Origin: Clostridia bacterium
GTDB lineage: Bacteria > Bacillota > Sulfobacillia > SLMV01
Direction of reading: 5' to 3'
DNA length: 38,888 bases
Assembly (NCBI GenBank): GCA_003551365.1
Contig: PUMM01000031.1
Coordinates: 1 to 38,888, forward strand
The notes under the pieces were generated by a model. It saw nothing but the letters and a program-made list of their open reading frames with translations. It had not been told where the DNA came from and did not search any database. Made by a program: the position numbers and the translations under genes. Below are positions 11,351-21,593 of the stretch, piece after piece. The stretch's first letter is position 1; each line of letters opens with the position of its first letter.

Positions 11351-14008
11351 TTGTCACGGGTTCCGGTAAGATTGGACGGCCGAGACGTGAGGGGAACACC
11401 GGACATGACCATACTGGATCTGGCGCGGCAGGAAGGGGTGGAGATCCCGACGCTGTGTGAGCACAGCGCGCTCTCCCCCTACGGTTCCTGCCGCGTGTGT
11501 TTGGTGGAGGAGGAGAAGAGTGGGGCAATGCTGGCGGCCTGTGTGACGGGCCTCGCCCCGGACATGGTGATCAACACGCAGTCGGAGCGCACGCTGAAAC
11601 ACCGAAAGATGATCGTTCGCATGATGCTGGCCAGTCATCCGAGTTCCTGCACGGTATGTGACAAGGGCAATCGGTGTGAGCTGCGCCGCGTAGCCGGAGA
11701 TCTGGGCATAGCATCTCCCGGCATGGATCGGGTCGCCCAGCCCACCCAAATAGTGGACCTCAATCCATTCATAGAGCGAGATATGAGCAAGTGCATTCTG
11801 TGTGGCAAATGCATCCGCATATGCCATGAGTTGGTGGTTGAGGGCGCCCTGAGTTATCGCGACCGGGGATTTGCTGCTCATGCTGCCACCTTCGGGGACG
11901 GCGTACTGGAGGGTTCGGAGTGTACCTTCTGTGGAGCCTGTGTTTCCGCCTGCCCGACCGGAGCCCTCATGGAGAGGCGGCGGGGCTACACGGGCAGCGG
12001 GGATCGCACCGTACAGACCGTGTGTCCCTTCTGCGGGTGTGCCTGTCCCATATCGGTAACGGTCAAGGGCAACAGGTTGGTCAGGGTAGAACCCGCCGAC
12101 CCCGAACAGCCGCTGTGCGTGCGCGGTAGTTACGGGCTGGATTTTGTGCACAGCCCGGACAGATTGCGAAAACCACAGATCAGAAAAAACGGTGAGCTCG
12201 TCCCGGTGGAGTGGGATGAGGCCCTCACCTACGCCGGGGAGAGGATGCAGGAGATTATCTCTGATAGAGGATCCGACTCCGCGGCGGTGTTGGGGTCATC
12301 GAAGGGGACGAATGAGGAGAACTACCTGCTGCAGCGGTTTGCCCGGGCAGTACTGGGGACCAATAACGTGGACAACGGCGGACGACTGTATAACGCGGCG
12401 GTCCGCGTGGGGTTGAGCGAGACGATTGGCGTGCCCGAGACCACCGACCGCATCACTGCACTGGCAGACGCTGATGTCATACTGGTGGTGGGAGCAGACC
12501 TGGCCAACTCGGCTCCCCAGCTGGCCTATGCAGTCCGCAGGGCGGTGAGGCTGGGTGATGCACAGCTGATACTGATTGACCCCAGTCGCACCAGAGTGGG
12601 CAGCATGGCAGATATGTGGCTGCAGCCGCGCCTCGGCACGGATACGGCATTTCTCGCCGCAGTTACCCATGTGATCTGCCACGAAGACCTGGTAGACCAG
12701 GAGTTTGTCGCGCGCAAGACGGAGGGATTTGAGGCCCTGTGCGATGCCGCGGCCGAGTGGACGCCCGAGTGGGCTGAAGAGGTGACCGGGATCCCGGCTC
12801 GCGAGGTACGCCGGGTGGCTCGTACCTTCGCTGGTGCGTCACAGGCGGCAATCATCTACGGAACCGGCATCACCCAGCAATCCAGACCGGCCGAGGGAGT
12901 GAAGCATCTGGCCAATCTCACCATGTTAACCGGCAATCTCTGGCGGGCCGGAGGCGGACTGTATGCGGTGCAGAAGGAGAATAACGGCCGCGGTGCATGC
13001 GAGATGGGGGCGCTGCCCGAGTTTCTGCCCGGATATCACCGCGTGGACCATCGCGGTATGCGCCGGGGTTACGAGGAGAGCTGGAATGTGCAGGTGCCCG
13101 ACACGCCCGGGCTGAGCGTTCTGGAGATGATGCTCGCCGCGGAGCGCGGAGAGATCGGCGCACTGTACGTGGTGGGTGAGAATCCGCTGAAAAACTATCC
13201 AAATCCCCGCAAGATGAGACGGGCACTGGAGTCCGTTGATTTTCTGATGGTACAGGATTTGTTCATGAGTGAGACAGCGGAACTGGCCGACGTCGTGCTT
13301 CCTGCCGCCAGCTTTTGTGAGAAGCGTGGCACCTTCATCAATTTTGAGGGTCAGATCCGCACCCTCAACCAGGTATTCGAACCGGAGGAGGGTGCCCTCA
13401 CAGATTGGGAGATAATCCTGCGCCTGGCGGAGAACATGGGTGTCCACCTGCCCTTCGCCTCTGTGGAGGACATTCAGGAGGAAATATCCGACCTTCTGCC
13501 GGAGATCGGGCCGCTGGATGCTGCCACGCACGTCCGTGATGCAAATGACGAGGCTGGATCTGCTGCGCGGCGCTGGCCGGTGTCCAGAGGTATTGCACGT
13601 TTCTGCCCGCCGGAACTCACGTTGCCGGAAGAACCGCCGGCCGAATATCCGTTCACCCTGGTGGCCAGCAATACCCTGTGGGGACAGGGTGGGGGTGGAC
13701 GCACGGGTCGTTCGAGTCGACTCAGTGAGTTCGCCGGCGAGAGTTTCGTCGAGGTTTCCTGCGTGGATGCTTCCCGCCTGGGACTGCAGTCCGGAGATAG
13801 GGTTCGCCTCGTATCTCCGGTCGGTGCGGTTGCGGTGCGGGCGAGCCTGTCGGAGGAACTGCCGGCTGGGGTGCTGACACTTCCGGCCCATTTCCCCGAT
13901 GCTCCGGCCACCGCCCTGTTTGACGTGTCACTGGATCCTGATACCGAGACGCCGATCATGAAATCCTGCCACGTTCGCATGGAAAGGAGAGGGTCGGATG
14001 AGAACTGA
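11351..14008 (+). CDS. Formate-dehydrogenase-like molybdopterin/iron-sulphur subunit with altered active site
   Basis: This 885-residue protein has the domain order of NAD-dependent formate dehydrogenase alpha subunits and NuoG. A [2Fe-2S] domain has Cys36, 47, 50 and 64; a His/Cys3 cluster uses His96, Cys100, 103 and 109; two [4Fe-4S] clusters use Cys148/151/154/158 and 191/194/197/201. The catalytic-domain cluster uses Cys225, 228, 232 and 256. The molybdopterin domains then run to about 740, and the dinucleotide-binding C-terminal domain follows. By alignment from memory with E. coli FdhF, the active-site Sec140-His141-Arg333 positions are Tyr347, Asn348 and Gln541, and Lys44 is Arg258. 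Tyr347 is encoded by TAT, so this is not a misread Sec codon. Formate oxidation therefore seems unlikely. Start TTG, with AGAGGGGGA at the ribosome site. The gene overlaps NuoE and belongs with MetVF. Confidence 0.85.
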   Translation: MSRVPVRLDGRDVRGTPDMTILDLARQEGVEIPTLCEHSALSPYGSCRVCLVEEEKSGAMLAACVTGLAPDMVINTQSERTLKHRKMIVRMMLASHPSSCTVCDKGNRCELRRVAGDLGIASPGMDRVAQPTQIVDLNPFIERDMSKCILCGKCIRICHELVVEGALSYRDRGFAAHAATFGDGVLEGSECTFCGACVSACPTGALMERRRGYTGSGDRTVQTVCPFCGCACPISVTVKGNRLVRVEPADPEQPLCVRGSYGLDFVHSPDRLRKPQIRKNGELVPVEWDEALTYAGERMQEIISDRGSDSAAVLGSSKGTNEENYLLQRFARAVLGTNNVDNGGRLYNAAVRVGLSETIGVPETTDRITALADADVILVVGADLANSAPQLAYAVRRAVRLGDAQLILIDPSRTRVGSMADMWLQPRLGTDTAFLAAVTHVICHEDLVDQEFVARKTEGFEALCDAAAEWTPEWAEEVTGIPAREVRRVARTFAGASQAAIIYGTGITQQSRPAEGVKHLANLTMLTGNLWRAGGGLYAVQKENNGRGACEMGALPEFLPGYHRVDHRGMRRGYEESWNVQVPDTPGLSVLEMMLAAERGEIGALYVVGENPLKNYPNPRKMRRALESVDFLMVQDLFMSETAELADVVLPAASFCEKRGTFINFEGQIRTLNQVFEPEEGALTDWEIILRLAENMGVHLPFASVEDIQEEISDLLPEIGPLDAATHVRDANDEAGSAARRWPVSRGIARFCPPELTLPEEPPAEYPFTLVASNTLWGQGGGGRTGRSSRLSEFAGESFVEVSCVDASRLGLQSGDRVRLVSPVGAVAVRASLSEELPAGVLTLPAHFPDAPATALFDVSLDPDTETPIMKSCHVRMERRGSDEN

Positions 14009-14489
14009 CACCGGAACTCGCACGGAAGTGTTTCGAACCGTGGTGCAGGACATACTGGACGAACATGCCGCGGAATCGTGGCCACTGATCGCTGTACTGC
14101 AGGAAATACAGCATCGCATCGGCTACATTCCGCCCGAGGCCGTTCCCCTGGTGGCCAGCCGGCTGCGGTTGTTCCCCGGAGAGGTCGAGGGAGTTATAAC
14201 GTTTTACTCGCAGCTGCGGGATCGGCCGCAGGGTCGTACAGTGGTGCGCGCCTGCCGGGGAACGGCCTGTCACGTCAGTGGCGGTACGGCGGTACTCAGG
14301 GCCCTGGAGGATGAGCTGGGCATTCGGGAAGGCGAAGCCACCCCCGATCGCGAGTACAGTCTGGAAACTGTGGCGTGCGTGGGAGCGTGTGGACTGGCCC
14401 CCAACGTCATCGTTGATGACGATGTGTACGGAAGTATGACTGCCAGGAAGGCGCGTCAGCTTCTGCAGAAGGACGGGGATGAGTCATGA
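13998..14489 (+). CDS. nuoE: NuoE-like [2Fe-2S] subunit
   Basis: A 163-residue thioredoxin-fold ferredoxin of the NuoE/HydC (complex I 24 kDa) family. The cluster ligands are Cys86, Cys91, Cys127 and Cys131 (CRGTACHV and CVGACGLAP), the normal spacing. The helical N-terminal domain includes LQEIQHRIGYIPPEAV and FPGEVEGVITFYSQL. Such subunits pass electrons between the NuoF flavin site and the other iron-sulphur clusters. It overlaps the large subunit gene by 11 bases and nuoF by four, indicating coupled translation and a stoichiometric complex. Confidence 0.93.
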   Translation: MRTDTGTRTEVFRTVVQDILDEHAAESWPLIAVLQEIQHRIGYIPPEAVPLVASRLRLFPGEVEGVITFYSQLRDRPQGRTVVRACRGTACHVSGGTAVLRALEDELGIREGEATPDREYSLETVACVGACGLAPNVIVDDDVYGSMTARKARQLLQKDGDES

Positions 14490-16135
14490 CCACACCACAT
14501 CGAGTATTCGTCTGCCATGAGACTCCCTGCGTTTCGCTCGGGGCCGAGGCGGTGTACGACGCATTTCGCAGAGAGATCGACCGGTTGGGCCTGGACCATG
14601 TGTCGCTGGAAATGAGCGGCTGTCACGGCCATGGACTCTGCTCCGGCGGACCCAGTGTGGTGGTGGAGCCTTCCCGCTTTCTGTACAACGGGCTGAAGCC
14701 GGAGGATGCTTCGGTAATCGTGCGCGAACACCTCAACCGGGGCCGACCTGTGCAGCACCTGTTTCACCGCGATCCCGGCACGGGCCGGTATATAGCCCGC
14801 TACGTCGATGTACCGTTTTTCGCCGGGCAGGAACGAGTTGCCCTGCGTAACTGCGGCAGGATCAATCCCGAGAGGATCGAGCACTATGTGGACAGGGGAG
14901 GCTACGGAGCTCTACAGCTGGCGCTGTCCACCATGACTCCGGAGGAAACCATTGACCTCATCGAAGAGTCCGGATTGCGCGGCCGGGGTGGGGCGGGCTT
15001 CCCCACTGGTCGCAAATGGCGCTTCTGTCGTCAGGCGCGCGCCGAGCAGAAGTACGTGGTGTGCAATGCGGACGAGGGCAACCCCGGTGCCTTCACGGAT
15101 CGCTCCGTGCTGGAGGGTGATCCCCACTCGGTGGTGGAGGGTATGATCATAGCCGGGTACGCTACCGGTGCCAGTCAGGGATACGTGTATGTTCGAGCCG
15201 AATACCCTCTGGCGGTGCGCAGGATCCACAAGGCCATTGACGATGCACGGCGGCGGGGATTTTTGGGAGAAGAGATACTGGGCGTTGACTTCGATTTCGA
15301 TCTCCGGGTGAAGGAGGGAGCCGGGGCCTTTGTCTGTGGTGAGGAGACCGCTCTGCTGCAGTCGATTGAGAGCGAACGCGGCATGCCGCGACCCCGACCA
15401 CCCTTCCCCACCGACATCGGTCTAAATGGAAAGCCGACGGTCATCAACAATGTCAAGACTCTCTCATATGTTCCGATAGTCATCGACCGTGGACCGGAGT
15501 GGTTCCGCGGTCTCGGAACCGAACAGAGCTCGGGCACAGCCGTATTCGCGCTGTCCGGAGACATTCGTTACAGCGGTCTCATTGAGGTCCCCATGGGCAC
15601 CTCGCTCAGGGACATAATCGAGCTGGGCGGCGGAATACCGGAGGGTAAGAGTGTGAAAGCAGTGCACACTGGAGGCCCCGCCGGAGGCTCCGTTCCGGCT
15701 CATGCGCTGGATATCGCGGTGGATTACGAATCCCTGCAGTCCCTCGGTTCCACCATGGGTTCCGGCGGCATGCTGATTCTGGACGAAGAGGCCTGCATGG
15801 TGGACATAGCGCGGTTCTTCATGGATTTTGCCCGTTCAGAATCCTGCGGCAAGTGTGTCCCCTGCCGCCTGGGTACCAAACAGATGGTCACCATTCTGAC
15901 CCGCATTGCCGGGTGCCGCGGTGTCGAGAACGATCTGACACTAATGCGGAACATAGCCGAGACCATGCGCGTTGGCTCACTGTGCGGTCTGGGGCAGACC
16001 TGCACCAACCCAGTCATGGCCACGCTCGAGCACTTCGAGGAGGATTACCGGGCGCACATTCAGGATGGGGCGTGTCCCACCGGGGTGTGCGATGTTGAAT
16101 TGGACGGCACGCGGGTGCGTGCGGCACATGATTGA
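14486..16135 (+). CDS. nuoF: NuoF/HydB-like NAD(H)- and FMN-binding subunit
   Basis: A 549-residue NADH-oxidising subunit. An N-terminal thioredoxin-like segment has Cys10, 15, 46 and 52 (spacing CX4C and CX5C, the second two positions wider than the usual GCxGxC motif), so a [2Fe-2S] cluster there is likely but unproved. The NAD/FMN domain has RGRGGAGFPTGRKW at about 164-177 and GEETALLQSIES. An SLBB domain follows, then the [4Fe-4S] domain with Cys454, 457, 460 and 500 (SCGKCVPCR; LCGLGQT). Bifurcating HydB subunits usually carry an extra C-terminal two-cluster ferredoxin; here the chain stops at PTGVCDVELDGTRV without it. The gene is 51 bases before metV. Confidence 0.92.
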   Translation: MTTPHRVFVCHETPCVSLGAEAVYDAFRREIDRLGLDHVSLEMSGCHGHGLCSGGPSVVVEPSRFLYNGLKPEDASVIVREHLNRGRPVQHLFHRDPGTGRYIARYVDVPFFAGQERVALRNCGRINPERIEHYVDRGGYGALQLALSTMTPEETIDLIEESGLRGRGGAGFPTGRKWRFCRQARAEQKYVVCNADEGNPGAFTDRSVLEGDPHSVVEGMIIAGYATGASQGYVYVRAEYPLAVRRIHKAIDDARRRGFLGEEILGVDFDFDLRVKEGAGAFVCGEETALLQSIESERGMPRPRPPFPTDIGLNGKPTVINNVKTLSYVPIVIDRGPEWFRGLGTEQSSGTAVFALSGDIRYSGLIEVPMGTSLRDIIELGGGIPEGKSVKAVHTGGPAGGSVPAHALDIAVDYESLQSLGSTMGSGGMLILDEEACMVDIARFFMDFARSESCGKCVPCRLGTKQMVTILTRIAGCRGVENDLTLMRNIAETMRVGSLCGLGQTCTNPVMATLEHFEEDYRAHIQDGACPTGVCDVELDGTRVRAAHD

Positions 16136-16186
16136 CCGACGTATCCGGGATCGTGCCGGGGCAGCTCATCCGAGGGAGGGAGAAGC

Positions 16187-16849
16187 TTGAAATCCATAAC
16201 CAGAGCAAAACCCATGGAGGAGATCGCCGAATATCTGCAGCCGTTCAACCGGATATATATTCTGGGCTGCGGCACCTGTGCCACCATGACCCGCACCGGT
16301 GGTGTGGACCAGGTGGTACAGATGAAGGAGCGTGTACAGGAGATAGACAAGTGGGTGACGGGCTGGCTGGTGATGCCCACAGCCTGCGATGAAATGGCTG
16401 AAGCGGACATGGAACGTGCGGCAGGAAACCTCGACTATGCCGACTGTGCCCTGGTAATGTCCTGCGCCATGGGCGTACATCGCGTGAGTGAATCTCTGCA
16501 GAAGCCGGTCATACCGGCCCTGGATACCCTGTTCATCGGTCTGGAAGAAGAGCCCGGACATTTCCGGGAGGTCTGCGATCAGTGTGGGCAGTGCATCCTG
16601 GGTGAGACTGCGGGAATATGCCCTCTGACTGCCTGTCACAAGGGACTGTTAAACGGTCCGTGTGGGGGTACTGATGGAGGCAAATGCGAGGTGGACTCGG
16701 ACCGGGATTGTGCCTTCACACAGATATATGACCGCCTGAAGGCGCAGGGCCGACTGGACCTGATGCGTCGGGCGCGTCCGGCCCGGGACTACCACGTGGA
16801 GCTGACACCCAAGCGCGCGATTTTCAGCGACAACGAAGAGGGAGGATGA
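16187..16849 (+). CDS. metV: MetV-type zinc/iron-sulphur subunit of methylene-tetrahydrofolate reductase
   Basis: A 220-residue, cysteine-rich protein of the family called methylene-tetrahydrofolate reductase C-terminal domain protein (MetV). It carries Cys28 and Cys31 (GCGTCATMTRTGG), Cys67, Cys87 and Cys93, and a C-terminal group Cys130, 133, 136, 145, 150, 159, 167 and 175 (CDQCGQC; NGPCGG). In acetogens MetV binds iron-sulphur clusters and feeds electrons to the flavin of MetF. The start is TTG with a GAGGGAGGGAG ribosome site. Its stop overlaps a possible ATG of metF. The position after nuoF suggests that NADH electrons reach MetF through this subunit. Confidence 0.92.
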   Translation: MKSITRAKPMEEIAEYLQPFNRIYILGCGTCATMTRTGGVDQVVQMKERVQEIDKWVTGWLVMPTACDEMAEADMERAAGNLDYADCALVMSCAMGVHRVSESLQKPVIPALDTLFIGLEEEPGHFREVCDQCGQCILGETAGICPLTACHKGLLNGPCGGTDGGKCEVDSDRDCAFTQIYDRLKAQGRLDLMRRARPARDYHVELTPKRAIFSDNEEGG

Positions 16850-16851
16850 CC

Positions 16852-17736
16852 ATGACTTCGCAATTCGGACGATATCTGGACTCGGGCGAATTCATCGTTA
16901 CCTGCGAAATTGGTCCGCCAAAGGGCAGCAATATCGAGGCCATGGAGCATCACATAGATCTTCTGAAGGATCGGGTACATGCTATCAATGTCACCGATCA
17001 TCAGGGATCGGTCATGCGGCTCTCCTCGCTCGCGGGATCCCTGGCGGTCAAGGAACATGGAGCTGAACCCATTCTGCAGATGACCTGTCGTGACCGCAAC
17101 CGACTGGCCCTGCAGGCGGATCTATTATTTGCCCACACCCGCGGCCTGAACAATATCCTTTGCCTGACCGGAGATGCTGTGGTGGTGGGAGATCACCCTG
17201 AGGCCAAGGGCGTTTTTGACCTCGACTCCGTGCAGCTCCTCGAGCTCATCCAGACCATGGAGGGTGGTCGCGATGCTGCCGGGAAGAAACTGGTTGGAGG
17301 CGTGGACTTCCGCCGCGGCGCGGTGGTTACCCCCGGAGCTGACCCGCTGGAGCCGCAGCTCATCAAGTTTGAGATGAAGGTGGAGGCGGGCGCCGAGTTC
17401 TTCCAGACTCAGGCAGTGTTCGATCTGGAAACCTTCGCATCATTCATGGACCAGGTACGCGGGTACGGGGTGAAAGTCTTTGCCGGAATTCTCGTACTTA
17501 CTTCGTACCGGATGGCCCGCTTTGTGCATGAGAATTTGCCCGGCATCCGGGTACCGGACTCCCTGCTGCAGGAGTTGAAGGACGCTCCCAAGGGCGAGGG
17601 ACTGGCCACGGGAATTGATATTGCCGCCCGCACCATTTCCGCGCTGCATGAGGACGGCATGTGCGATGGGGTGCACGTCATGGCGATAAATGCGGAGGAG
17701 TCCGTCCCCGAGATTCTGGATAAGGCGGGACTGTGA
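16852..17736 (+). CDS. metF: Methylene-tetrahydrofolate reductase, MetF
   Basis: MetF reduces 5,10-methylene-tetrahydrofolate to 5-methyl-tetrahydrofolate with a bound flavin, the last step of the methyl branch of the Wood-Ljungdahl pathway. The 294-residue TIM barrel shows the active-site Glu19 (TCEIGPPKGSN), QMTCRDRN at 76-83 and LCLTGD at 103-108, with a C-terminal region that fits the family. An ATG at 16846 directly abuts the GGAGG ribosome site, so the ATG at 16852, six bases after it, is the better start. It is the last gene of the run and ends at a strong hairpin facing the convergent regulator. Confidence 0.95.
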   Translation: MTSQFGRYLDSGEFIVTCEIGPPKGSNIEAMEHHIDLLKDRVHAINVTDHQGSVMRLSSLAGSLAVKEHGAEPILQMTCRDRNRLALQADLLFAHTRGLNNILCLTGDAVVVGDHPEAKGVFDLDSVQLLELIQTMEGGRDAAGKKLVGGVDFRRGAVVTPGADPLEPQLIKFEMKVEAGAEFFQTQAVFDLETFASFMDQVRGYGVKVFAGILVLTSYRMARFVHENLPGIRVPDSLLQELKDAPKGEGLATGIDIAARTISALHEDGMCDGVHVMAINAEESVPEILDKAGL

Positions 17737-19936: not shown

Positions 19937-20296
19937 TTACCCTGCAGAATCGAGCAGTCGTCCCACCAGTTTAACGGGGAAGAAACTCATGAGGGTGGTG
20001 ATGAATACGGCCAGGGCGGCGTAGGAGAAGCCCTTATCATACTTTCGGGCGATTATGGGGGTGGCGGCCATGCTGGGCATGGCGTTCTGCATTGTCACGA
20101 ATCTTTGCACGGTGTTCGGACCATGCAGGAGCCGGAGCGGGAGACCGATGACAAGCGGCGCGACCAGCAGGTGCCCCGCGCAGACGACGACCAGACTGTA
20201 GTGCAGAGCCCCGCGCGCGGACACATGGATAGATCCCACCCCCATTCCCACCGCCAGGGTGGCGGGCGGCTCAGTGGGCGTGAGGATGGGCGAATT
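19937..20296 (-). pseudogene. Remnant of an AEC (auxin efflux carrier) family transporter
   Basis: The translated segment resembles only the C-terminal three or four membrane helices of an AEC-family permease (LAVGMGVGSIHV ... LLVAPLVIGLPLRLL ... VTMQNAMPSMAATPIIAR), about 115 residues against roughly 300 for a whole carrier. The frame is the same as that of the cooT-like gene and stays open from its stop codon, but it contains no ATG in the region between, and the stretch between the two is a biased His/Phe/Arg-rich peptide rather than a transporter. The N-terminal two thirds are missing. I read it as a broken leftover gene; a GTG at 20251 could start a short peptide, but function is unlikely. 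Confidence 0.6.
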
Positions 20297-20422
20297 GAGG
20301 TCGAGGTGGGGGAGTCGGTGGAAGTAGCGGAACCGGTGGAAGTGAAACGGCTCCGCTGCATGAGCCCCGGTTGCGCAAGGGGCCGGGGCTCGTGGTGCGT
20401 TCGTTCGGAAAGGGAGATGGAT

Positions 20423-20611
20423 TCAGATGACGAGAGTGTCGTCCCTCGAGCTCCATCTGACATTATTTTCGATTTCGAATTCCCTTTCCTCACCCATCAT
20501 CTGCCAGGCCCGTATCCGGTTTGTGTCCAGAAGGATTTCGTAGCCGGAAACCTCTTCCATCAGCTTGGTGTCCTCCTTCTGTTCTCCCCGATAGATAGTC
20601 ACCATGCACAT
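20423..20611 (-). CDS. cooT: CooT family nickel-binding protein
   Basis: A 62-residue protein that starts Met-Cys-Met and continues VTIYRGEQKEDTKLMEEVSG, ending with a beta-rich segment (YEILLDTNRIRAW ... FEIENNVRWSSRDDTLVI). This matches the small CooT family, first known as a nickel protein in maturation of carbon monoxide dehydrogenase in Rhodospirillum rubrum; Cys2 is the key nickel ligand. The ATG at 20611 lies nine bases after AAAGGAG, better than the ATG at 20617, and gives the conserved Met-Cys start. A NikR-like operator lies about 60 bases upstream. A nickel enzyme such as CO dehydrogenase is the likely client but is not encoded here. Confidence 0.82.
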   Translation of the reverse strand: MCMVTIYRGEQKEDTKLMEEVSGYEILLDTNRIRAWQMMGEEREFEIENNVRWSSRDDTLVI

Positions 20612-20669
20612 GACCATCAGCTCCTTTCCGTATCGCATTCTGCCGGGTGCAGGGTGTCGCGAACAAGTC

Positions 20670-20697
20670 GTGTTACTTAGAAAGCGCATAGTAACAC
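20670..20697. promoter_or_regulatory. NikR-like operator upstream of cooT
   Basis: A perfect dyad GTGTTAC-N14-GTAACAC. This agrees, from memory, with the recognition pattern GTGTTAC-N13/14-GTAACAC described for NikR of Geobacter-type bacteria. It overlaps the predicted cooT -10 box, so a bound repressor would block it. The regulator gene itself is not in the window. Confidence 0.7.
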
Positions 20698-20716
20698 TAT
20701 ATGTGAGTCAAGTCTA
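20688..20716 (-). promoter_or_regulatory. Candidate cooT promoter
   Basis: On the minus strand -35 TAGACT (20711-20716) and -10 TACTAT (20688-20693) are 17 bases apart. The -10 box lies within the first half of the GTGTTAC/GTAACAC dyad, consistent with repression by nickel-loaded NikR. Confidence 0.5.
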
Positions 20717-20749
20717 GCAGAGTGATTTCACGGGGTCAATGATGCCGCG

Positions 20750-20810: not shown

Positions 20811-21593
20811 TCAACTGCCCCCGGGCTCCTTCTTTCCGACCAGACACTCATATTCGCACTGCCGGCAGTACTTGATCACGCGAACCTTCTTTCCGTCCTC
20901 CGTCTCCTGCAGCTCGGCGCACTCCTCGTCCGCCGCCATCTGCCCCGCGCACCGCTTGCGACTGTAGCTGCCGTCTCTTGCGGGAAGCCTGGTTACACCC
21001 GTCTGTCCGGGAGTATGAACGATGTCGTCAAAGGCGTTCGCCGGGCAGCTCTGCAGGCAGGGTGCATCGCAGGAGGAACATGGATCGAATGCTGACGGTC
21101 CGGTGGACAAGAGCGCCTGGTTGATCACCAGTGCGCGGAGGCGCACTCTCGGACCGTACTCCGGGGCGATGAACAGGTTATTTCGGCCCACGCAGCCCAG
21201 CCCGGCCTGGGTTGCCGCGTCCTTCAGGAAGAGCCCTCCTTTTTTCGCGTGATAGGGCATGTGGTGTACTCTTACCCTGGCATGGTATGTCTCTGCCCAG
21301 CGCTGGAGCTGGTTGATGACAGAAGCCAACTGACTATTCCCGCGTGGCGGTGTGTCCCCGAACCACCAGTCCAGCTCGGGAGTGTCCTTCGGATGAGCAA
21401 TCCCCACCACTACGACGCTCCGCCCGCCCTCGGGCCAGTCCACGGCTTCCTCCTCATTCAGCTGTGGGGCGAGGAGGTGCGAGGGCGATTCGTGCAGATC
21501 CCGTACGTGGGCGATGCCGGCGATGTCAGCGCCGAGCTCCCGGGCCCTGTAGAGCAGGCTGGAGGACATTGTGATCAGCTCGGTATTATTCAT
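20811..21593 (-). CDS. QueG-like double [4Fe-4S] cluster protein
   Basis: A 260-residue protein resembling the catalytic and ferredoxin parts of epoxyqueuosine reductase (QueG). It has GLGCVGRNNLFIAPEYG, the family motif GK/RNxLxI, then a first [4Fe-4S] motif with Cys172, 175, 179 and 183 (CSSCDAPCLQSC). A second, less regular one uses Cys215 and Cys243, 246 and 250. It lacks the C-terminal HEAT repeats of true QueG (usually about 350 residues). Many such short relatives exist in anaerobes and their substrate is not known. The ATG is preceded by GGAGAGG. No queuosine gene is nearby, so tRNA modification should not be assumed. Confidence 0.75.
   Translation of the reverse strand: MNNTELITMSSSLLYRARELGADIAGIAHVRDLHESPSHLLAPQLNEEEAVDWPEGGRSVVVVGIAHPKDTPELDWWFGDTPPRGNSQLASVINQLQRWAETYHARVRVHHMPYHAKKGGLFLKDAATQAGLGCVGRNNLFIAPEYGPRVRLRALVINQALLSTGPSAFDPCSSCDAPCLQSCPANAFDDIVHTPGQTGVTRLPARDGSYSRKRCAGQMAADEECAELQETEDGKKVRVIKYCRQCEYECLVGKKEPGGS

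Follow-up and report, generated by a model that had tools for sequence, protein, structure and literature searches.

A perfect inverted repeat, GTGTTAC-N14-GTAACAC, lies at the promoter of a small cooT-like gene in a 38,888-nucleotide stretch of DNA from a Clostridia bacterium (hereafter the window). We consider it likely that NikR uses this dyad as an operator and so controls a CooT-like, putatively nickel-binding protein of enzyme maturation, which would be repressed when nickel is sufficient and would serve delivery of the metal to CODH/ACS when nickel is scarce. The initial annotation of the window had proposed a link of this kind between nickel supply and the maturation of a nickel enzyme, and the proposal is supported by nikR and its nickel ligands, by a sister operator, by the occurrence of the motif at nickel genes across the class, by the predicted CooT fold and by CODH/ACS, with the binding of NikR, the direction of control, nickel binding by the CooT-like protein and delivery to CODH being the parts that we infer. 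The result does not amount to a new kind of system: the switch would be of a known type, for which the cooT-like gene is a plausible additional target.

These observations should be read in light of the quality of the genome, a draft (86% complete, 5.9% contamination) in which the cooT-like gene (contig C179), nikR (C56) and the CODH/ACS-cooC cluster (C146) lie on separate contigs. Contamination is argued against by the fact that nikR, the ECF-S gene and the cooT-like gene each have close relatives within the genus. The named relatives are metagenome-assembled genomes (MAGs) labelled "Clostridia bacterium", whose isolate codes we take to denote soda-lake sediment.

The dyad and the cooT-like gene

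The dyad (GTGTTACTTAGAAAGCGCATAGTAACAC) occupies positions 20670–20697 and is read on the minus strand, exactly as first described, with an upstream half-site GTGTTAC at 20691–20697 and a downstream half-site GTAACAC at 20670–20676 (both in gene-strand reading, minus strand) arranged head-to-head; each arm reaches 8 bp once the inner T/A pair is counted. The likeness to a Geobacter-type NikR motif, pointed out in the initial annotation, proves to be an identity, in that the dyad equals the published consensus GTGTTAC-[N13/14]-GTAACAC for NikR in Geobacter, Desulfovibrio and their relatives among the deltaproteobacteria (PMC545781). The half-sites, the 13/14-bp spacer and the inverted repeat are thus alike, but for those bacteria the list of targets comprises genes of nickel transporters, an Fe-only hydrogenase and a hypothetical cluster (PMC545781), whereas the gene here is cooT-like and the lineage is one whose named relatives are "Clostridia bacterium" genomes of presumed soda-lake origin. 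The two GTnnnAC half-sites are 21 bp apart from centre to centre, which would place them on the same face of the DNA. As an anonymous dyad, a perfect inverted repeat is common; for this particular one, the 2.78-Mb draft genome holds no other match with fewer than three mismatches, all the others having three, and 0.005 exact copies would be expected by chance at the composition of the window. No Rfam element was found in the window.

The gene itself (20423–20611 including the stop, minus strand; coding sequence 20426–20611, stop 20423–20425) encodes 62 amino acids beginning MCMVTIYRG. Its best start is the ATG at 20611, followed by TGC, and a Shine-Dalgarno sequence AAGGAG (20621–20626, minus strand) stands 9 nt upstream, a spacing that fits. 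The protein has three homologues that are 63–65% identical to it, the four coming from three genomes of one family; all four members open with Met-Cys (one from a GTG start), and 25 columns of their alignment are invariant, Met1-Cys2 included. We take the gene to be real because the homologues all begin with Met-Cys and because AAGGAG lies 9 nt before the start. Cys2, part of the Met-Cys-Met opening that had been likened to CooT, is conserved in the homologues; in CooT this residue belongs to the nickel site, and one Ni(II) is bound by each dimer.

Assignment of the protein to CooT stands at the level of predicted fold and falls short at the level of the family model. Specifically, the score against Pfam CooT (PF10133) is 20.4 bits, below the curated cut-off of 27, so we call the protein CooT-like only, and a profile search against the solved CooT structures gave no match, the likeness being visible by fold comparison only. 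The AlphaFold2 model (pLDDT 88.7) has seven strands and is predicted to hold the CooT fold; its top Foldseek matches are the CooT structures 6FAN, 6Y8V and 5N76 (probability 0.99–1.00, TM 0.67, over the whole length), a match that we count as support and not as proof, given that AlphaFold2 training possibly included CooT. The CooT proteins of Rhodospirillum rubrum and Carboxydothermus hydrogenoformans (5N76, 6Y8V, 6FAN) are alike in having about 62 amino acids, seven strands, Cys2 and this fold, but their identity to the window protein is only 11–19%. Furthermore, R. rubrum cooT lies inside the coo operon, whereas the cooT-like gene lies outside the CODH operon.

NikR and a sister dyad in the same genome

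A search of the draft genome for nikR found one copy (C56:15723–15950, E 9.2e-28, above the cut-off of the NikR equivalog model), and alignment with solved NikR structures shows that all four nickel ligands established for E. coli NikR (His, His-x-His, Cys) are kept. Absence of nikR, the first of the grounds on which the initial annotation would have been refuted, is thereby excluded. Directly after nikR, and before the gene for an ECF transporter S-component (ECF-S) that is followed by a methyltransferase gene, lies a sister dyad, GTAGCAC-N14-GTGCTAC. Its half-site GTAGCAC is GTGCTAC on the other strand, one base from GTGTTAC, and the two dyads have equal 14-bp spacers and half-sites of like type but of opposite polarity. 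As to other copies of the motif in the genome, a relaxed search (GTRTTAC-N12-16-GTAAYAC) gave no second head-to-head copy in the draft genome, but the reversed form, differing by one base per half-site, stands beside nikR and the ECF-S gene.

The sister dyad is shared by relatives. GTAGCAC-N14-GTGCTAC, exact or one base off, separates nikR from the ECF-S gene in this genome (G000) and in G005, G002 and G004, and in G006 a sister-type dyad is found 5′ of an ECF-S gene and 5′ of a cooT-like gene. The cooT-like gene is carried by only three genomes of the family, and two of its four copies have a dyad; none was found 5′ of the cooT-like gene of G005 or of the second one of G006. Nor did the suggestion that the dyad might precede CODH/ACS genes find support, as a scan of the CODH/ACS genes of G000, G004, G005 and G006 showed none nearby.

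Position of the dyad in the promoter

The top promoter of the scan is TTGACC-N17-TAGACT (20739–20711), with a −35 element TTGACC at 20734–20739 (minus strand; 9 of 12 with a spacer of 17, a consensus match only) and an extended −10 element TGCTAGACT at 20711–20719 (minus strand) that is common to the window and the cooT-like orthologue of G006. If this is the promoter, the dyad lies just 3′ of the start point. The distance from TGCTAGACT to the 28-bp dyad is exactly 13 bp in both promoters, and the dyads come out in register when the promoters are aligned by MAFFT. In shuffled sequences, an ungapped stretch of 9 common to both promoters and in register with the dyads arose in 0.035% of cases (P 0.00035). 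Because the spacing is the same, the two dyads hold an equivalent place despite their opposite polarity, and we regard this fixed spacing in orthologous promoters as the strongest single item of evidence. We favour TTGACC-N17-TAGACT because its TGCTAGACT recurs in the G006 promoter, which probably places the operator a short way 3′ of the −10 element, at about +8 to +35, and not over it. An alternative obtained by reading the sequence, TAGACT-N17-TACTAT, is weak, has its −10 element inside the dyad and is not kept in G006; it is probably the promoter behind the earlier statement that the dyad overlaps the −10 box, a statement that is correct for this weak promoter only and not for the best-scanned one, where the dyad is downstream of the start.

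NikR-type sites across the class

It is informative to examine the dyad in light of a motif survey that covered 154 genomes of the class. Tail-to-tail sites, GTARCAC-N13/14-GTGYTAC, were found at nikR in three genomes (G044, G047 and G150), at cbiM/nikM in G044, at cbiQ in G037 and G148, at ECF-S genes in G038, G039, G140 and G147, and also at other likely metal genes, together with some evident chance matches in coding sequences. A degenerate head-to-head pattern had three matches among the 154 genomes: the window, the cbiM/nikM gene of G143, and one inside a coding sequence that is evidently due to chance. In reversed orientation, the GTGTTAC half-site is part of the sites at nikR of G047 and G150 and of that at an ECF-S gene of G147. 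A backward control pattern was about as frequent as the motif; site counts alone are thus no proof and the argument rests on gene context. The NikR regulon inferred across the class (nikR, ECF-S, cbiM/nikM, cbiQ) shares with the window dyad its 7-N13/14-7 architecture of GTGYTAC half-sites, although its sites are mostly tail-to-tail and the window dyad is head-to-head, like the G143 cbiM site. Both orientations have been reported for deltaproteobacterial NikR sites, and both within Desulfovibrio vulgaris (PMC545781, Rodionov et al. 2004). In many genomes of the class, ECF-S genes are preceded by NikR-type dyads, which suggests that these genes belong to a nickel-related uptake system.

CODH/ACS and C1 genes

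The genes acsA, acsB, acsC, one for a CooC-like ATPase, acsD and acsE form one cluster on C146; acsA was named by family model and the others by sequence features and gene order. In the window, C1 genes identified by Pfam span 11351–17736 (plus strand) and comprise a molybdopterin oxidoreductase with NADH dehydrogenase-G/F/E-like subunits (formate dehydrogenase type), metV (DUF5981) and metF (MTHFR). The initial annotation had judged its proposal to fit the C1 genes nearby. A nickel enzyme that a CooT-like protein could serve, CODH/ACS, is present in the genome but on another contig; the nearby formate dehydrogenase-type genes and metV/metF do not encode nickel enzymes.

Alternative explanations

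Could the dyad be a functionless chance repeat? We think this highly improbable. Although the window holds six perfect 7-N13/14-7 inverted repeats and the G005 cooT-like gene does without any dyad, GTnnnAC arms are found in only one of the six, that of the cooT-like gene; the low number of exact copies expected per genome and the promoter-anchored position common to the G006 orthologue (with the P value given above) likewise speak against chance. It is also worth considering that the dyad may serve some other regulator, of the ribbon-helix-helix or dimeric helix-turn-helix kind, the sequence being shared with NikR operators by chance and cooT being free of nickel control. The draft genome has only one known nikR, and the half-sites linked to it differ from those of the window in one base and in orientation; indeed, the single head-to-head copy and the use of GTGTTAC as against a reversed GTGCTAC at nikR are features that we count against the NikR reading. 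Nonetheless, the dyad is exact to the published NikR consensus (PMC545781), the G006 orthologue has a dyad of the nikR type in the corresponding place of its promoter, and the reversed GTGTTAC half-site is found at nikR itself in two genomes of the class and at an ECF-S gene in a third, so that another regulator appears improbable, if less so than chance.

A weightier alternative, which we still think unlikely, is that NikR binds the dyad but that the gene encodes a small protein for storing, buffering or sensing nickel and not a CODH maturation factor. The gene lies outside the CODH/ACS operon and on another contig, its Pfam CooT score is below the cut-off, and G004 has CODH and lacks a cooT-like gene. 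Set against this are the predicted CooT fold with Cys2 and the distribution of the gene, which within the order is confined to genomes with a full CODH (three of four, as opposed to none of the four without a full CODH, small numbers in both cases); moreover, a store would be expected at high nickel and not at low.

Proposed switch and its implications

In the reading that we favour, in which NikR controls a CooT-like maturation protein, nickel-loaded NikR would sit on both GTnnnAC half-sites just 3′ of the promoter when nickel is sufficient and would block transcription. As nickel falls, NikR would leave the DNA, and CooT would be made together with the product of the NikR-linked ECF uptake gene and would help to bring scarce nickel to the CODH/ACS enzyme. 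Since nickel-loaded NikR would repress cooT along with nickel uptake, CooT would rise at nickel scarcity. By analogy this would fit the behaviour of R. rubrum cooT mutants, whose growth on CO needs added nickel (PMC6006190), when that dependence is set beside a derepression of cooT and uptake at low nickel.

A broader proposal, which we offer tentatively and rate as somewhat less than even, is that one NikR in this lineage reads both half-site orientations, that in orthologous cooT promoters the half-sites have turned round while keeping their place, and that uptake is coupled to a CODH metallochaperone, a member of the NikR regulon not reported before. Drift of polarity without loss of control would be possible because GTnnnAC is nearly palindromic and the NikR ribbon is two-fold symmetric. 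A search of the open literature found no published link between NikR and cooT. Most of the control by NikR that is known or predicted bears on nickel uptake, and some of it on nickel or alternative enzymes. If true, the link would place a CODH metallochaperone under nickel control, consistent with a need for CooT when nickel is scarce (PMC6006190), and would give a simple, testable nickel-sparing circuit for acetogen-like bacteria of presumed soda-lake origin. Furthermore, the orthologous promoters with swapped half-site orientation amount to a natural experiment in operator recognition by a ribbon-helix-helix repressor.

Additional sites and flanking features

Several further observations concern NikR-type sites elsewhere. 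The order nikR, NikR-type dyad, ECF-S gene and SAM methyltransferase gene is seen in G000 (L016 1774–2957, contig C56) and G004 (L079 16382–17611), and the ECF-S proteins (ECF_trnsprt) of these loci are weakly FolT-like. G004 has a second NikR-type dyad, with one mismatch, 5′ of a gene for a TrmO-like protein (L079 4995–5523, contig C163), a possible and unexpected NikR target; likewise, a GTAGCAC-N14-GTGTTAC dyad 5′ of an FmdE/zinc-finger protein gene in G142 (L059 1501–2184) marks another possible target. Two GCAGCAC-N14-GTGCTGC dyads of G007 (L029 1501–1528, L036 871–898) are similar to the motif but were set aside, no nikR having been found in that genome, and may be a dispersed repeat.

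Within the window, a perfect 8-bp GC-rich inverted repeat, AGCCCCGG-N12-CCGGGGCT, lies at 20363–20390, just 3′ of the cooT-like gene, and is possibly a transcription end that does without a run of T. Also 3′ of this gene and on the same strand, 19937–20410 encodes the C-terminal part of a membrane transporter (PF03547, profile positions 269–340, just below the cut-off), apparently the remnant of a decayed gene. On the 5′ side, an open reading frame on the same strand (20811–21593) is weakly similar to parts of QueG and reductive dehalogenases.
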